A stretch of DNA of 64,000 nucleotides from Amycolatopsis viridis. GTDB lineage: Bacteria; Actinomycetota; Actinomycetes; Mycobacteriales; Pseudonocardiaceae. Shown here in pieces: positions 309-57,457 of the stretch (its first letter is position 1; the number at the start of each line of letters is the position of its first letter). The notes below the pieces were generated by a model. That model was not told the origin of the DNA, made no database searches, and saw only the letters and a program-made list of their open reading frames with translations. The translations under genes and the position numbers were made by a program. Location: NCBI RefSeq assembly GCF_011758765.1, contig NZ_JAANOU010000001.1, positions 4,588,001 through 4,652,000 on the forward strand, in the 5' to 3' direction.

Positions 309-377
309 CGGAAACCGCGGAACCGGCCACCGATCGTGGCCTCGGCCGAGCTGGTCGGGTTTCGCCGCCGCGGCCGA

Positions 378-671
378 CTGTTTGCCGCCCACCGCAGCGT
401 GTTCGCCACCCCGGCCAGCGTGTTCACCGCTCCGGCCGGCGTGTTGTTCACCGCTCCGGCCGGCGTGTTTGCCACCCCGGCCGGCGTGTTCGCCGCTCCG
501 GCCGGCGTGTTCGCCACTCCGGCCAGCGTGTTCCCCACTCCGGCCAGCGTGTTTGCCACCCCGGCCGGCGCGTTTGCCGCTCCGGCTGGAGTGTTCGCCA
601 CCCCGGCCGGCGTGTTTGCAGCTCCGGCTGGAGTGTTTGCCGGCCGGGCCGGCGTGTTTGCCACCCCGGCC
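378..671 (+). repeat. 21-bp tandem repeat array, 13 units
   Basis: Units begin at 399, 420, 441 (24 bp), 465, 486, 507, 528, 549, 570, 591, 612, 633 and 654 (the last is 18 bp), with a degenerate unit from 378. Typical unit: GTGTTCGCCACCCCGGCCGGC. Variable positions are mostly base 6 (C/T) and bases 10-12 (ACC/GCT). No spacers, so it is not CRISPR. All three forward frames stay open because the unit has no stop; one frame would give a VFAAPAG heptad, but there is no ribosome binding site. It lies between two co-oriented glycan genes and belongs to the same family as arrays at 10258, 20247 and 57311. Confidence 0.9.
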
Positions 672-8283: not shown

Positions 8284-9708
8284 GTGGAGAAGACTTTCGC
8301 CGGCGCGAAGCTGCGCCACCTGCGGGAGAGCCGGTCGATGAGCCAGGCGGACCTGGCCAGGTTGCTCGAAATCAGCCCCAGCTACCTCAACCAGATCGAG
8401 CACAACTCGCGTCCCTTGACCGTTCCGGTGCTGCTGCGGATCACCGAGGCGTTCGGCGTCGACACCGAGTTCTTCGCCAACAACGACACCAGCCGCCTGG
8501 TCGCCGACGTGCGCGAAGCCCTGCTCGACGAGGCGATCGGCATCGACGCGACGACCAGCGAGCTCAACGAGCTGGCGAAGAACCTGCCCACGATCGCGCA
8601 GGCCCTGGTCCGGCTGCACCGCAGCTACCGGGCGGCGGTGGAGAGCACGGCCGCGCTGGTCACCGAGAACGGCCTGGGGCCGCACGGCAGCGCCGCCGCC
8701 CCCCTGCCGCACGAGGAGGTCCGCGACTTCTTCTACGAGCGGGAGAACTACGTCGCCGAGCTGGACGAACGCGCCGAACGCATGGCCGAGGACATCGGCC
8801 TGCGGCGCGGAGCCGTGCACAACACCCTGCAGGAGCGGCTCGCCAACCACTACGGCGTGCAGGTGACCAGTGAGGGCATCGACGAGGCCGCCGGGCAGCA
8901 GCACCGCTACTCCCCGGACGCGAAGATCCTGCGGCTCGCGCCGAGCCTGCGCGTCGGCCAGCGGGCGTTCCGGATGGCTTCGCAGATCGCGCTGCTCGAG
9001 TACGACGACCTGATCACCGAGCTCGCCGACTCGTGGGCGTTCTCCGGCCCGGCGGCCCGGTCGCTGGCCCGGGTGGGGCTGGCCAACTACTTCGCCGGGG
9101 CGCTGATCCTGCCGTACGGGCCGTTCCTGTCGACGGCGGAGAGCTTCCGCTACGACATCGAGCGGCTGTGCGACCACTTCGGAGTCGGCTTCGAGACGGT
9201 GTGCCACCGCCTGTCCACCCTCCAGCGGCCGAAGCGGCGCGGCGTGCCGTTCTCCTTCGTGCGGGTGGACCGCGCGGGCAACATGTCGAAGCGGCAGTCG
9301 GCGGCCGGCTTCCACTTCTCCCGCGTCGGCGGTTCGTGCCCGCTGTGGAACGTCTACGAGGCGTTCAGCTCGCCCGGCAAGATCCTCACCCAGATCGCGA
9401 CGCTGCCGGACGGCAAGAGCTACTTCTGGATCGCGCGGACGGTGTCGCGCAACATCGGCGGGTACGGCAGCCCGGGCAAGATGTTCAGCGTCGGGCTCGG
9501 CTGCGAACTCCGCCACGCCGGCCGGCTGATCTACTCGACGGGCCTGGACCTGGACGCCAGGGCGGCTGCCACGCCGATCGGCATGGGCTGCAAGGTGTGC
9601 GAGCGCCCGGCCTGCCCGCAGCGCGCGTTCCCGACGATCGGCAAACAGCTCACGGTCGACGAGAACACCAGCACCTTCGTCCCGTACCCGGCGGTGCCCA
9701 AGGGCTAG
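8284..9708 (+). CDS. ramB: RamB-type regulator of acetate metabolism (XRE / short-chain fatty acyl regulator)
   Basis: 474 aa from the GTG at 8284; an upstream GTG would add 12 residues not shared by relatives such as Rv0465c. The XRE helix-turn-helix is at residues ~5-60 (LRESRSMSQADLARLLEISPSYLNQIEHN), an IrrE/M78-like region at ~220-290, and a C-terminal ScfR-type domain with RRGVPFSFVRVDRAGNMSKRQSA and a cysteine cluster GCKVCERPACPQRAFP near 445-460. The family controls aceA and aceB in response to acyl metabolites. Divergent from aceA, with candidate operators between. The cysteine cluster could bind a metal; that is inference. Confidence 0.92.
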   Translation: MEKTFAGAKLRHLRESRSMSQADLARLLEISPSYLNQIEHNSRPLTVPVLLRITEAFGVDTEFFANNDTSRLVADVREALLDEAIGIDATTSELNELAKNLPTIAQALVRLHRSYRAAVESTAALVTENGLGPHGSAAAPLPHEEVRDFFYERENYVAELDERAERMAEDIGLRRGAVHNTLQERLANHYGVQVTSEGIDEAAGQQHRYSPDAKILRLAPSLRVGQRAFRMASQIALLEYDDLITELADSWAFSGPAARSLARVGLANYFAGALILPYGPFLSTAESFRYDIERLCDHFGVGFETVCHRLSTLQRPKRRGVPFSFVRVDRAGNMSKRQSAAGFHFSRVGGSCPLWNVYEAFSSPGKILTQIATLPDGKSYFWIARTVSRNIGGYGSPGKMFSVGLGCELRHAGRLIYSTGLDLDARAAATPIGMGCKVCERPACPQRAFPTIGKQLTVDENTSTFVPYPAVPKG

Positions 9709-9717
9709 CGTGGCAAC

Positions 9718-10254
9718 ATGACGAAGATCTTCCGGATCCTGGCGGTCAGCGGGAGCACGCGGGCGGGCTCGGCCAACTCCGCGATGCTCGCGACCGCGCG
9801 GGCCGTCGCACCCGACGGCGCGGTGGTGGACATCTACGAGGGACTGCGGTCACTGCCGCACTTCGATCCGGATGACGACCGGGATCCGTTGCCGGCGGCC
9901 GTCGCCGACCTGCGCGGGCGGCTGACGGAAGCGGACGCGGTGCTGTTGTGCACCCCGGAGTACGCGGGCGCGCTGCCCGGGTCCTTCAAGAACCTCCTCG
10001 ACTGGGCGGTCGGCTCGGCGGCGATGGACGCCAAGCCGGTGGCGTGGATCAACGTGTCGTCCTCGATCACCGGCGCCGCCGGGGCGCACGCGTCGCTGCG
10101 CACTGTGCTCGGCTACCTGGGAACGCGGATCGTCGAAGACGCGTGCGTGCACATCCCCGTGCGACGGGACGCGGTCGGCGCGGACGGGCTCATCCACGAC
10201 GATGCCGTGCGCGACCAGGTGCGAGCAGCACTCATCGCGCTGGCAACCACCTGA
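9718..10254 (+). CDS. NAD(P)H-dependent FMN reductase family protein
   Basis: 178 aa flavodoxin-fold protein. The N-terminal phosphate loop ILAVSGSTRAGSANSAML (~7-24) binds FMN phosphate, CTPEYAGALPGSFKNLLDWAVG (~79-100) is the PEY.G..PG..KN.LDW signature of NADPH-dependent FMN/azo/quinone reductases, and INVSSSITGAAGAH follows. Starts 9 bp after ramB and could share its transcript. Substrate unknown (flavin, quinone or chromate are typical). A palindromic 21-bp repeat cluster starts 3 bases after its stop. Confidence 0.88.
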   Translation: MTKIFRILAVSGSTRAGSANSAMLATARAVAPDGAVVDIYEGLRSLPHFDPDDDRDPLPAAVADLRGRLTEADAVLLCTPEYAGALPGSFKNLLDWAVGSAAMDAKPVAWINVSSSITGAAGAHASLRTVLGYLGTRIVEDACVHIPVRRDAVGADGLIHDDAVRDQVRAALIALATT

Positions 10255-10257
10255 ACC

Positions 10258-10383
10258 GGCCAATACGGCGCCCGCAACAGCGAACACGGCGCCACGAGCG
10301 GCAAACACGCGCACCTGCCGGCGTGTTTGCCGCTCCGGCCGGCATGTTGGCCGGCTGCGGCGGGCGTGTTTGCCGGCTGCGGC
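10258..10383. repeat. Palindromic 21-bp repeat cluster between convergent genes
   Basis: Three units in CAAACAC orientation (10258-10278, 10279-10299, 10300-10319) meet three in GTGTTTG orientation (10320-10340, 10341-10361, 10362-10383). At the junction GGCAAACACGC (10300-10310) and GCGTGTTTGCC (10321-10331) form an exact 11-bp stem with a 10-nt loop. It fills the gap between the FMN reductase stop and the convergent acyltransferase stop. Units match the arrays at 378, 20247 and 57311. Probably a bidirectional terminator or 3'-end element. Confidence 0.85.
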
Positions 10384-10391
10384 GGTGGGCG

Positions 10392-11147
10392 CTAGTGCTG
10401 TTCGAGCGTTTTCTGGAGCGCCTTGCTCGCCTTGCGGGCCATGTCCGCGACGGCCTCGCGACGGGCGGCGTCGGCTTCGTAGTCGGCCCGCCGGTCCCGC
10501 ACCACGCGGGCCGGGGAGCCGACCGCGATGGCGTAGTCCGGGATGTCACCGCGCACGACCGCGTGGGCGCCGAGCACGCAGCCGCGGCCGACGCGGGTCC
10601 CGCGGAGGACCGACACCTTGGTGCCGATCCAGGTGTCCGGTCCGATCCGGACCGGGGTCTTCACGATGCCCTGGTCCTTGATCGGCAGGTTGATGTCCGC
10701 CGTGACGTGGTCGAAGTCACAGATGTAGACCCAGTCGGCCACCAGGGTCGCCGCGCCGAGCTCGATGTCGAGGTAGCAGTTGATGACGTTCTGGCGCCCG
10801 AAGACCGCCTTGTCGCCGATCCGCAGCGAACCTTCGTGGCAGCGGATGGCGTTGCCGTCGCCGATGTGCACCCAGCGGCCGATCTCCAGGCGGCCGTACC
10901 CGGGCCGGCAGTGGATCTCCACGTCCTTGCCGAGGAAGACCATGCCGCGCAGGATGATGTGCGGGTTGGCGAGCCGGAACTTGAACAGCCGCCAGTACCG
11001 CACGAGGTACCAGGGCGTGTAGGCCCGGTTGCGGAGAACCCAGCGCAGGGACTCGGCGGTCAGGAACCTCGCCTGCCGCGGGTCGCGCCGGGCGCGGCGC
11101 CACGCCTGCACCCGGGACAGCACCGGCGATCCCCACATCGATGTCAT
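10392..11147 (-). CDS. Left-handed beta-helix (hexapeptide repeat) acyltransferase, Rv3034c-like
   Basis: 251 aa. About 45 N-terminal residues precede a series of hexapeptide turns (IGRWVHIGDGNAI, IGDKAVFGRQNVI, LGAATLVADWVYI, IGPDTWIGTKVSVLRGTRVGRGCVLGAHAVVRGDI) ending in PARVVRD, the pattern of trimeric O-acetyl/acyltransferases of the LbetaH fold. FDHVTADINLP near 150 carries the probable catalytic His. It probably acetylates a glycan or lipid-linked sugar; acceptor unknown. M. tuberculosis has a similar gene close to its Rv3031-3032 loci. The ATG at 11147 lies 11 bp from the divergent nucleoside hydrolase start; an internal ATG at 11138 is equally possible. Confidence 0.85.
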   Translation of the reverse strand: MTSMWGSPVLSRVQAWRRARRDPRQARFLTAESLRWVLRNRAYTPWYLVRYWRLFKFRLANPHIILRGMVFLGKDVEIHCRPGYGRLEIGRWVHIGDGNAIRCHEGSLRIGDKAVFGRQNVINCYLDIELGAATLVADWVYICDFDHVTADINLPIKDQGIVKTPVRIGPDTWIGTKVSVLRGTRVGRGCVLGAHAVVRGDIPDYAIAVGSPARVVRDRRADYEADAARREAVADMARKASKALQKTLEQH

Positions 11148-11152
11148 AGGTT
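11147..11152 (+). promoter_or_regulatory. Candidate -10 element for a leaderless transcript
   Basis: TAGGTT fits TAnnnT and ends 6 bases before the nucleoside hydrolase ATG at 11159, so a transcript would start at or next to the A of the ATG. This would explain the missing ribosome binding site and the 11-bp divergent gap. Confidence 0.4.
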
Positions 11153-11158
11153 GACAGT

Positions 11159-12121
11159 ATGCCGCTCCCGTTGATCATCGATACGGACCCGGGCGTGGAC
11201 GACGCCTTCGCGATCGCCGTGGCGGCGCTGAGCGAGGACGTGGATCTGCTCGGGATCACCACGGTGTTCGGCAACGTCCCGCTCGAGGCGACCACGCTCA
11301 ACGCCCGCCGGGTACTGGCGTTGTGCGGGCGTGCCGACGTGCCGGTGGCCGCCGGTGCCGCGCGCCCGCTGGTGCACGCCCAGCTGCGGCGGGCCAGTCA
11401 CGTGCACGGCCCGGACGGGCTGTCCGGGCGTTCGGCGACGCTGCCCGAGCCGCACCGGGCGGTGGAGCCGGGCGGCGCGGTGCGCCTGCTGGTGTCGCTG
11501 CTCGAGGCGGCCGAGGAGCCGGTGACGATCGCGCCGATCGGCCCGTTGACGAACATCGCGCTGCTGCTGGCCGCGCACCCGCAGGTGCGGGAGAAGATCG
11601 GCCGGATCGTGATCATGGGTGGCGGCCTGGCCGGTGGCAACTCGACCGGCGCGGCGGAGTTCAACATCTGGAGCGACCCGGAGGCGGCGCGGCGGGTGCT
11701 GGTCGAGGAGACCGTGCCGTGCGTGCTGGTGCCGATGGACCTGACGTACCGGTGCGCGGTGGACAGCGCGTGGCTGGGCGAGCTCGCCGCGTCCGGCCCG
11801 GTCGGTGCCGCGCTGGCGGCCCTGACCCCGGACTACCGGGCGCACTACCGCACAGCTCTCGGCTGGGACGGGATCGTGCTGCACGACGCAGTCGCGGTCG
11901 CCGAGGCGATCCGGCCCGGCATCCTGCGCACCGAGCGGTATCCGGTGGAGGTCGAGTGCTCGCTGGGTCCGGCGCGCGGCGCGACACTGGTCGACCGGCG
12001 GCGGCAGGCGCTGCGCGCGGACGCGGAGGGCGACGTGGTGCCGGGCCGGGTCGAGATCGCGGTGGACACCGACCTGGACGGCCTGCGCGCGTTCATCCTG
12101 GAGCGACTGGCCCGGAGCTGA
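11159..12121 (+). CDS. Inosine/uridine-preferring nucleoside hydrolase
   Basis: 320 aa. The N-terminal LIIDTDPGVDDAFAI is the calcium-binding DTDPGVDD signature of nucleoside hydrolases. GPLTNIALLL and VIMGGG.AGGNSTGAAEFNIWSDPEAA (about 125-180) supply the ribose and metal contacts, and HDAVAVAEAI near residue 240 provides the conserved His-Asp. The enzyme cleaves the N-glycosidic bond of nucleosides to base and ribose in the cytoplasm. Substrate preference cannot be read from sequence. The start is the first ATG; no Shine-Dalgarno is visible and a -10-like TAGGTT sits 6 bases before it, so it may be leaderless. Convergent with the next gene. Confidence 0.93.
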   Translation: MPLPLIIDTDPGVDDAFAIAVAALSEDVDLLGITTVFGNVPLEATTLNARRVLALCGRADVPVAAGAARPLVHAQLRRASHVHGPDGLSGRSATLPEPHRAVEPGGAVRLLVSLLEAAEEPVTIAPIGPLTNIALLLAAHPQVREKIGRIVIMGGGLAGGNSTGAAEFNIWSDPEAARRVLVEETVPCVLVPMDLTYRCAVDSAWLGELAASGPVGAALAALTPDYRAHYRTALGWDGIVLHDAVAVAEAIRPGILRTERYPVEVECSLGPARGATLVDRRRQALRADAEGDVVPGRVEIAVDTDLDGLRAFILERLARS

Positions 12122-20238: not shown

Positions 20239-20246
20239 GCCACATC

Positions 20247-20382
20247 GGCCAACACACCACCCGGAACCAGCCAACACACCACCCGGAGCGGCAAACACAC
20301 TGCCCGGAGCAGCAAACACGCCGACCAGCGGCGTGTTTGCCGCCGGGGGCGCCGTGTTTGCTGGCGGGGGTGGTGGGTTGGC
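20247..20382. repeat. Palindromic 21-bp repeat cluster between convergent genes
   Basis: CAAACAC-orientation units at 20247-20267, 20269-20289, 20290-20310 and 20311-20329 meet GTGTTTG-orientation units from 20330. At the centre GCAAACACGCC (20312-20322) pairs with GGCGTGTTTGC (20330-20340) around a 7-nt loop. It fills the 149-bp gap between bcp and the GntR gene. Same architecture as 10258-10383. Confidence 0.85.
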
Positions 20383-20387
20383 CGTCG

Positions 20388-21098
20388 CTACATGCCGGTC
20401 CGGTAGGCGGTGACCAGCTGGTTCTCCGCGTCGTCGAGGTAGGCGGCCAGCAGGCGCTCCGCGGCGGCGCCGTCACCAGTACGGAGCCGGTCCAGGATCT
20501 CCCGGTTGCGCTCCAGGTACGGCTCGTGGAACGGCTGCGGGTCGGCCATCACGTGGAAGACCAGCCGCAGCTCGGCGAGCAGCCCGCGCACCAGCTCGTC
20601 AACCCGGGGACTGCCGGCGAGCGTGATCAGCGCCTGGTGGAAGTGGATGTTGGCGGTGCCCAGCTCACGCCAGGCCTGGCGCTTCTTCGCGTCCTCACCG
20701 TCGGCCACCGCGGCCTCCACCGCCCGCAGCTTGTCCCCCGGCGGGCTGTCGATCTCCCGCAGCACCGCGCACTCGACGAGCTTGCGCACCTTGTACAGGT
20801 CGATCACGTCCTCGACCGAGAGGCGGCGCACGAACACGCCCCGGTTCAGCTCGTGGACCAGCAGCTTCTCGTGGGTGAGCAGCCGGAACGCCTCCCGCAG
20901 GGTGTTGCGGGAGACGCCCAGCGCCCCGCCTATCGCCTCCTCGGACAGCCGGCTGCCAGGCTCGAAGTAGCCCTCCGTGATGCGTGCACGCAGGATGTCC
21001 GCCAGGCGTTCGGCGGTGCTCGTGCGCCCGAGCAGCAGGCGGTCCGCTTCGAGCCCGGTGCTGAGCATCGAGCCCATGGACTCGGCGTCGGTGGTCAC
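20388..21098 (-). CDS. GntR family regulator (FCD/FadR subfamily)
   Basis: 236 aa from the GTG at 21098, with CCGGAGG six bases upstream. The winged helix lies at ~20-85 (LADILRARITEGYFEPGSRLSEEAIGGALGVSRNTLREAFRLLTHEKLLVHELNRGVFVRRL). The FCD ligand domain follows, with DLYKVRKLVECAVLREI and the metal-binding His in NIHFHQALITLAGSPR. FCD regulators respond to carboxylic acids. Divergent from the MFS-pxpABC operon, so 5-oxoproline or a related acid is the likely effector; that is inference. Confidence 0.88.
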   Translation of the reverse strand: MTTDAESMGSMLSTGLEADRLLLGRTSTAERLADILRARITEGYFEPGSRLSEEAIGGALGVSRNTLREAFRLLTHEKLLVHELNRGVFVRRLSVEDVIDLYKVRKLVECAVLREIDSPPGDKLRAVEAAVADGEDAKKRQAWRELGTANIHFHQALITLAGSPRVDELVRGLLAELRLVFHVMADPQPFHEPYLERNREILDRLRTGDGAAAERLLAAYLDDAENQLVTAYRTGM

Positions 21099-57290: not shown

Positions 57291-57310
57291 ACCCACGCCT
57301 GACGCTCGCG

Positions 57311-57457
57311 GGCCAACACGACGCCCGGAGCGGCCAACACGCCGACCGGAGCGGCGAACACGCCGACCGGAACGGCCAACACGCCGACCGGAACGGCCAA
57401 CACGACGCCCGGACCGGCCAACACGACGCCCGGACCGGCGAACACGACGGCGGGGGC
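57311..57457 (-). repeat. 21-bp tandem repeat array, exactly 7 units
   Basis: Units start at 57311, 57332, 57353, 57374, 57395, 57416 and 57437, each 21 bp with no length variation. On the plus strand a typical unit is GGCCAACACGCCGACCGGAAC; on the minus strand it is the GTGTTGGCC type, the same orientation with respect to the upstream gene as the array at 378. Lies 16 bp after the stop of the ECHDC3-like gene and before a co-oriented MFS gene. No spacers. Confidence 0.9.

Follow-up and report, generated by a model that had tools for sequence, protein, structure and literature searches.

What does a short repeat do that lies as a palindrome between two stop codons, and does its orientation report the direction of transcription? 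In the analyzed window, i.e. the whole stretch of 64,000 nt, six 21-bp units (10252-10380) occupy the convergent intergenic space between an NADPH-dependent FMN reductase gene (PF03358; 9718-10254, plus strand; stop codon TGA at 10252-10254) and a hexapeptide-repeat transferase gene (PF00132; 10392-11138, minus strand), the stop codon of which reads CTA on the plus strand (10392-10394). This space has a length of 137 bp from stop codon to stop codon (10255-10391). Three units were found on each strand with GTGTT facing outward. The left arm (10252-10314, minus strand) consists of the units 10252-10272, 10273-10293 and 10294-10314 with profile scores of 13, 22 and 17 bits, respectively. The right arm (10317-10380, plus strand) consists of the units 10317-10337, 10338-10358 and 10360-10380 (27, 12 and 14 bits) with a spacing of 21 and 22. 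Both arms carry the GTGTT-type core. The exact 11-bp stem at the palindrome centre (10300-10331) that was described in a sequence-only reading of this locus could be confirmed: GGCAAACACGC at 10300-10310 and GCGTGTTTGCC at 10321-10331 are separated by a loop of 10 nt. The same reading described three CAAACAC-type units facing three GTGTTTG-type units. The count of three per strand was correct, but the literal motif is present in only three of the six units (the other cores are CCAATAC, CGAACAC and ATGTTGG). The array nearly fills the space between the stop codons, though not exactly as proposed, since the stop codon is part of the first unit and 11 bp on the right remain unoccupied.

The profile search identified four clusters in the window, compared to three in total when the window was dinucleotide-shuffled 100 times over its full length. 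A second palindromic cluster with four left and three right units occupies 20241-20389, where an AhpC/TSA-type gene and a GntR/FCD gene converge. Unidirectional arrays were found at 372-668 (plus strand, 14 units, co-oriented genes on either side) and at 57305-57451 (minus strand, 7 units, between co-oriented minus-strand genes), in agreement with the single direction reported earlier for these two co-oriented sites (378 and 57311).

The units belong to a dispersed repeat family of the window's genome (G000; single contig, 5,684,261 bases). The named relatives that matched this genome best by a single gene are Amycolatopsis species, with a protein identity of 97%. The unit profile learned from tandem members is GGCGGC GTGTTNGCC GCTCCG. 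In this genome, 74 strict tandem pairs and 392 pairs of a looser pattern were detected, compared to none for the reversed pattern in both cases; the reversed controls gave single matches in a few other genomes. The controls of the palindrome search resulted in 1 to 5 matches per genome, so that low palindrome counts are meaningless there. An unbiased sample comprising the window and 80 evenly spaced tiles (1.664 Mb) contained 23 clusters. With the addition of 30 stretches and 12 small loci, a partial census of 66 clusters and 709 units was obtained, in which arrays with strict tandem pairs are over-represented, since the targeted regions were picked from tandem-pair match lists (for the looser pattern, from the first part of the 392 matches). 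Genes were called by a small custom script and not by a published gene finder, and calls largely covered by array units were regarded as spurious. Two inward pairs (L063 and L083) were each entered as two clusters and the weak two-unit cluster L075 was kept. The genome coordinates of eight small census loci are approximate, while the array-gene relations are unaffected. The spacing between units on the same strand was exactly 21 in 565 of 596 census steps, the centres of outward palindromes were spaced 20-23 in 33 of 41 cases, and the longest head-to-tail runs comprised up to 19 units. Between about 2.66 and 4.45 Mb of the contig (G000:C1) the census clusters appear sparser than elsewhere; the census of this region is partly biased.

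Next to the family itself, the position relative to genes was analyzed. The unbiased sample contained 1,517 neighbouring gene pairs (255 convergent, 1,006 co-oriented and 256 divergent) with 25 kb of convergent, 87 kb of co-oriented and 53 kb of divergent space. Of its clusters, 11 are located in convergent, 8 in co-oriented and 1 in divergent space, and one further cluster lies within a gene (classes counted by hand, after reassignment of L102:5319 to the convergent and L087 to the co-oriented class). The 20 intergenic clusters are unevenly distributed over the bases available per class (P = 2e-6, chi-square test). Divergent spaces comprise twice the DNA of convergent ones, yet hold one cluster compared to 11. 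In the census, 35 clusters were convergent, 26 co-oriented and 3 divergent, whereas 2 were found inside genes; 21 of the 26 co-oriented clusters are closer to the upstream stop than to the downstream start. Thus, arrays favour the 3′-ends of genes and avoid divergent spaces, and the earlier description of the repeat as a 3′-end feature holds. This location may in part reflect tolerance, since an array should be least harmful after a stop codon and most harmful in a promoter. The sole divergent cluster of the unbiased sample (L107:6768-6989) is an exception to the 3′-end rule, with a distance of 35 bp to the called start of a minus-strand gene downstream of it.

Outward junctions prevail over inward ones in the census (41 vs. 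6). The proposed rule that arrays are palindromic between convergent genes and unidirectional between co-oriented genes failed in the census: outward palindromes were found in 20 of 35 convergent and in 14 of 26 co-oriented clusters (Fisher P = 1.0). Since the frequencies are alike, the palindrome is no mark of convergent genes; the sequence-only reading had itself named such an outcome as a refutation. In agreement with this, among 19 clusters in stretches of a sister genome (G092) that were picked around array loci of G000, the outward ones were co-oriented in 8 cases, convergent in 4 and at an edge in 1, and the unidirectional ones were convergent in 4 and co-oriented in 2 cases. In our preferred reading, the palindromic layout would arise incidentally, as two arms extend away from a common centre, and would not be a sign of convergent transcription. 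Of 22 unidirectional arrays, 15 are in sense relative to the closest stop codon (P = 0.13), and 3 of the 9 that lie between co-oriented genes are antisense. The latter (L245:3358-3669, L024:1498-1686 and L234:5978-6186) are antisense to both neighbours and closer to the downstream start than to the upstream stop, L234 by 7 bp. An unseen transcript of the opposite strand would explain these antisense arrays.

The location after stop codons would be expected of intrinsic terminators, in which an RNA hairpin folded from the palindrome would terminate transcription arriving from either gene. The consensus arms GCGGC/GCCGC are present in the unit. Outward clusters folded better than shuffled sequences (z of −2 or lower) in 22 of 24 cases on the plus strand and in 21 of 24 on the other strand, as expected of any inverted repeat; this good folding results from the inverted copies of one consensus. 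The folding set consisted of sequences trimmed to 260 nt, with the eight small loci, unidirectional arrays of less than four units, outward clusters of more than 12 units and inward or mixed clusters omitted. Unidirectional arrays fold variably on the sense strand, with z of −2 or lower in 7 of 21 and z of 0 or higher in 11 of 21, which speaks against termination by folding. A hairpin function also predicts matching arms within a locus. The inner units of the two arms of a locus were identical at 14.17 of 21 positions on average, compared to 14.49 for permuted loci (41 pairs, P = 0.945), so that the arms match no better than the common consensus allows. Base-pair covariation within the unit was not found, as the pairing was within 0.03 of independence for all six pairs tested. 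Actinobacterial terminators can be without a T run. No terminator-like site with a G+C-rich stem followed by a T run was detected in 9700-11200, a scan which covers only terminators with a T run, and Rfam gave no match above the gathering score in the window. The hairpin is therefore unsupported by covariation, arm complementarity and folding. Of the putative action at RNA 3′-ends that was suggested in the sequence-only reading, the hairpin form is weakened by the missing covariation and by two relatives (G155 and G064) that have overlapping stop codons and no array beside the FMN reductase gene. A plain hairpin terminator is considered unlikely and is the least likely reading compared to recognition sites or a selfish repeat.

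The sequence of the units is constrained in a different manner. Among 478 inner units, 88% carry GTGTT without a mismatch. Of the eight 5-mer windows examined elsewhere in the unit, the best, which includes the conserved GCC, reached 34%; the profile was trained on core-bearing seeds and is thus biased toward the core. The strict core is GTGTTBGCC, where B is any base except A. An A at position 5 was found in 2 of the 709 units of G000, all others having T, C or G, and in none of 88 units of G092, 36 of G156, 54 of G210 and G219 and 18 of G009. The core and the A-free position 5 recur in G092 and G156 as well as in two genomes from genus g16 and one from g10, with different spacer preferences. 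Positions 5 and 6 are coupled (TG, GG, CG or CA).

Copying between loci was not seen. Identical units in different loci were observed in 41 pairs compared to 67 expected (sd 19), and no 30-mer was common to two loci among the 23 tile clusters. The family profile is thus not the result of recent copying. Adjacent units, in turn, were alike at 10.0 of 14 variable positions compared to 8.2 by chance (589 pairs), which indicates local duplication. Furthermore, the arrays have a polarity: in 105 runs, position 5 of the first unit was T in 48% and G in 22%, and that of the last unit was T in 32% and G in 61%. Last units also carry A or G at position 1 more often. The preference of the first unit is C in unidirectional arrays (62%) and T in outward arrays (57%), which fits no reading offered here.

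The strict core, the lack of copying between loci and the polarity point to sequence recognition, either by a factor serving the cell or by a unit-copying activity. Since the core is kept while hairpin arms do not match, the units resemble a set of docking sites for a putative factor rather than a simple stop signal. Our preferred reading, held tentatively and at slightly less than even confidence, is that the arrays are dispersed, oriented 21-bp recognition sites for such a factor which expand by local duplication. A sequence-specific factor of the cell would read the core in one orientation on DNA or RNA. Units would multiply by tandem duplication within a locus and decay there, and those without a core would be lost. 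The core could be maintained by selection for the cell or by selection among units, in which core-bearing ones get copied; the data are compatible with either. In orthologous units the core had diverged at 18 of 165 positions compared to 83 of 462 for the rest (33 aligned units, P = 0.036), a weakly significant difference that suggests only somewhat lower divergence of the core.

Comparison with G092, for which aligned tiles are 94-98% identical to G000, revealed a rapid turnover. The comparison comprised 110 orthologous spaces of at least 20 bp with clean 300-bp flanks, the locus reported here not being among them. The unit number differed in all 10 array spaces, which were longer in G000 in every case, in one by 5 bp. 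A length change of at least 5 bp was found in 10 of 10 array spaces compared to 11 of 100 array-free and 2 of 11 array-free convergent spaces. In the alignments inspected, sequence was gained or lost, in many cases by a multiple of 21 bp, and G092 carries decayed units. The identity of aligned bases was 0.882 for the 10 array spaces, 0.953 for the 100 array-free spaces and 0.900 for the 11 array-free convergent spaces; much of the gap may be an effect of convergent spaces, as their identity is also low without an array. Faster point change in arrays was rejected as confounded in this way, which the length change is not. At the locus reported here, the array of G092 consists of four units on the left and one on the right, and that of G156 of three on each side, beside a neighbour other than the FMN reductase gene. 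The FMN reductase gene is kept without an array in G155 and G064 (88 and 85% identical, respectively), where the stop codons overlap, and in G130, G161 and G146.

Tandem pairs occur in 14 of the 19 genomes of the genus (range 0 to 392), and 10 of the 19 have 0-2. On a one-gene tree the 7 array-rich genomes are scattered, requiring 6 changes compared to a mean of 5.9 after shuffling. Since arrays are scarce or absent in close relatives, any function should be dispensable or replaced. In the family, a match was found in 120 of 390 genomes and ten or more in just 18, which span five genera. In the order outside of the family, 9 of 318 genomes had one match each with a slightly stricter pattern, similar to 6 of 318 for the reversed control. 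In the fragmented assembly G150, several tandem pairs are found no further than 250 bases from the start of contigs such as C3, C10, C15, C17 and C46, so that arrays may break assemblies.

The turnover, the patchy occurrence and the five array-free genomes with a kept FMN reductase gene are what would be expected of a selfish or neutral minisatellite, which multiplies by core-dependent copying or slippage and is tolerated after stop codons without a function for the cell. One array that sits in a coding linker agrees with this as well. Such a repeat would account for turnover and patchiness equally well as recognition sites or better. It fits less well with the strict core in units with highly diverged spacers and with the lack of copying between loci, and plain slippage leaves the common core across genera unexplained. 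A minisatellite of this kind is the main rival of our preferred reading and is regarded as a serious possibility, clearly short of even chances.

If the arrays are recognition sites serving the cell, the likeliest consequence, if any, would be a boundary after transcription units similar to BIMEs, which may influence read-through, transcription ends or supercoiling. A more specific and rather improbable variant is that of roadblock terminators, in the manner of TTF-I at Sal boxes: a putative sequence-specific DNA-binding protein on the arrayed units would stop RNA polymerase after genes in an orientation-dependent manner. As 21 bp correspond to two helical turns, the bound proteins would be aligned in register along a single face of the DNA, and the outward arms would let the polymerase pass oppositely facing units and halt it before the opposing gene.

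In eukaryotic rDNA, the Sal-box/TTF-I terminator arrays consist of oriented protein-binding sites that are repeated in tandem downstream of the RNA polymerase I transcription unit. The 21-bp arrays are similar in this layout, whereas the protein partner is known there and putative here. The 12-nt segment between cores fits one profile and is not unique, which speaks against a CRISPR array. Among the open-licence literature matches listed (titles and beginnings of abstracts), the 21-bp family was not described. Among known elements, it comes closest to REP/BIMEs (PMC3733652) and to the non-coding satellites of bacteria (PMC6749651).

REP/BIMEs are palindromes tagged with GTAG or CGTC, which in the excerpted text occur mainly after coding regions, between convergent or unidirectional genes (PMC3733652). 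They share with the family described here the short repeats at many loci, the common dimers of opposite orientation, the placement mostly at gene 3′-ends, the patchy distribution across species and the occurrence of some copies within genes (PMC3733652, in excerpt). The 21-bp family differs from this excerpted description in its head-to-tail arrays, in a unit pairing that is not kept through paired changes and in having no constant GTAG or CGTC tag (PMC3733652). Spacers in several other genomes do contain CGTC, though not as a constant element. The REP transposase domain (Y1_Tnp, PF01797) was not found in G000 or in 16 of 18 array-rich genomes (36 genomes searched); matches were obtained in the array-rich G086 and G125, and a weak one in 1 of 18 array-poor genomes. 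An identity with REP/RAYT systems was therefore rejected by paired changes, tag and PF01797, although the extragenic 3′ placement is the same. The word actinobacteria does not occur in that REP/BIME text (PMC3733652).

In the excerpt of the second source, non-coding satellite families in bacteria were reported solely for Leptospira interrogans, where dispersed tandem arrays of related non-coding units resemble those described here (PMC6749651). The bacterial satellite families covered by this excerpt have repeats of more than 30 nt, whereas the present units have 21 bp, are oriented and are linked to gene ends (PMC6749651). The arrays described here are head-to-tail, variable in unit number and located outside of genes, as for non-coding tandem satellites. 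For Amycolatopsis mediterranei 23 satellites were counted, so that members of the 21-bp family may already be included in that count, undescribed in the excerpt (PMC6749651). If our preferred reading is true, the family would represent a bacterial equivalent of satellite DNA in which recognition, and not pairing, keeps the sequence in check. Oriented, core-constrained arrays lie at scores of gene ends, and their turnover is visible between genomes of about 96% identity. The array-rich G000 and G156 and their array-poor relatives offer a ready comparison to distinguish a role in termination or supercoiling from tolerated parasites.

Finally, the unit length of 21 bp corresponds to 7 codons, and the arrays could be remnants of coding sequence or a translated repeat. 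In 233 units, one sense frame contained 2 stop codons compared to 12.7 expected under independent shuffling of positions, and one array lies in frame within a gene. On the other hand, nearly all arrays are outside of called genes (2 of 66 clusters inside) and occur in both orientations, the most variable position of the unit would be a second codon position, and the other frames contain 16 and 35 stops. A translated repeat was therefore rejected as very improbable despite the stop-depleted frame. The in-frame array (L052:18647-18751; G000:C1 near 1509647) comprises five units in the linker of a Mg-chelatase-like AAA/VWA protein, where they encode peptide repeats of the GEHGDGS type. In the G092 ortholog of this protein, four weaker units are present at the equivalent position (L292:3793-3876).
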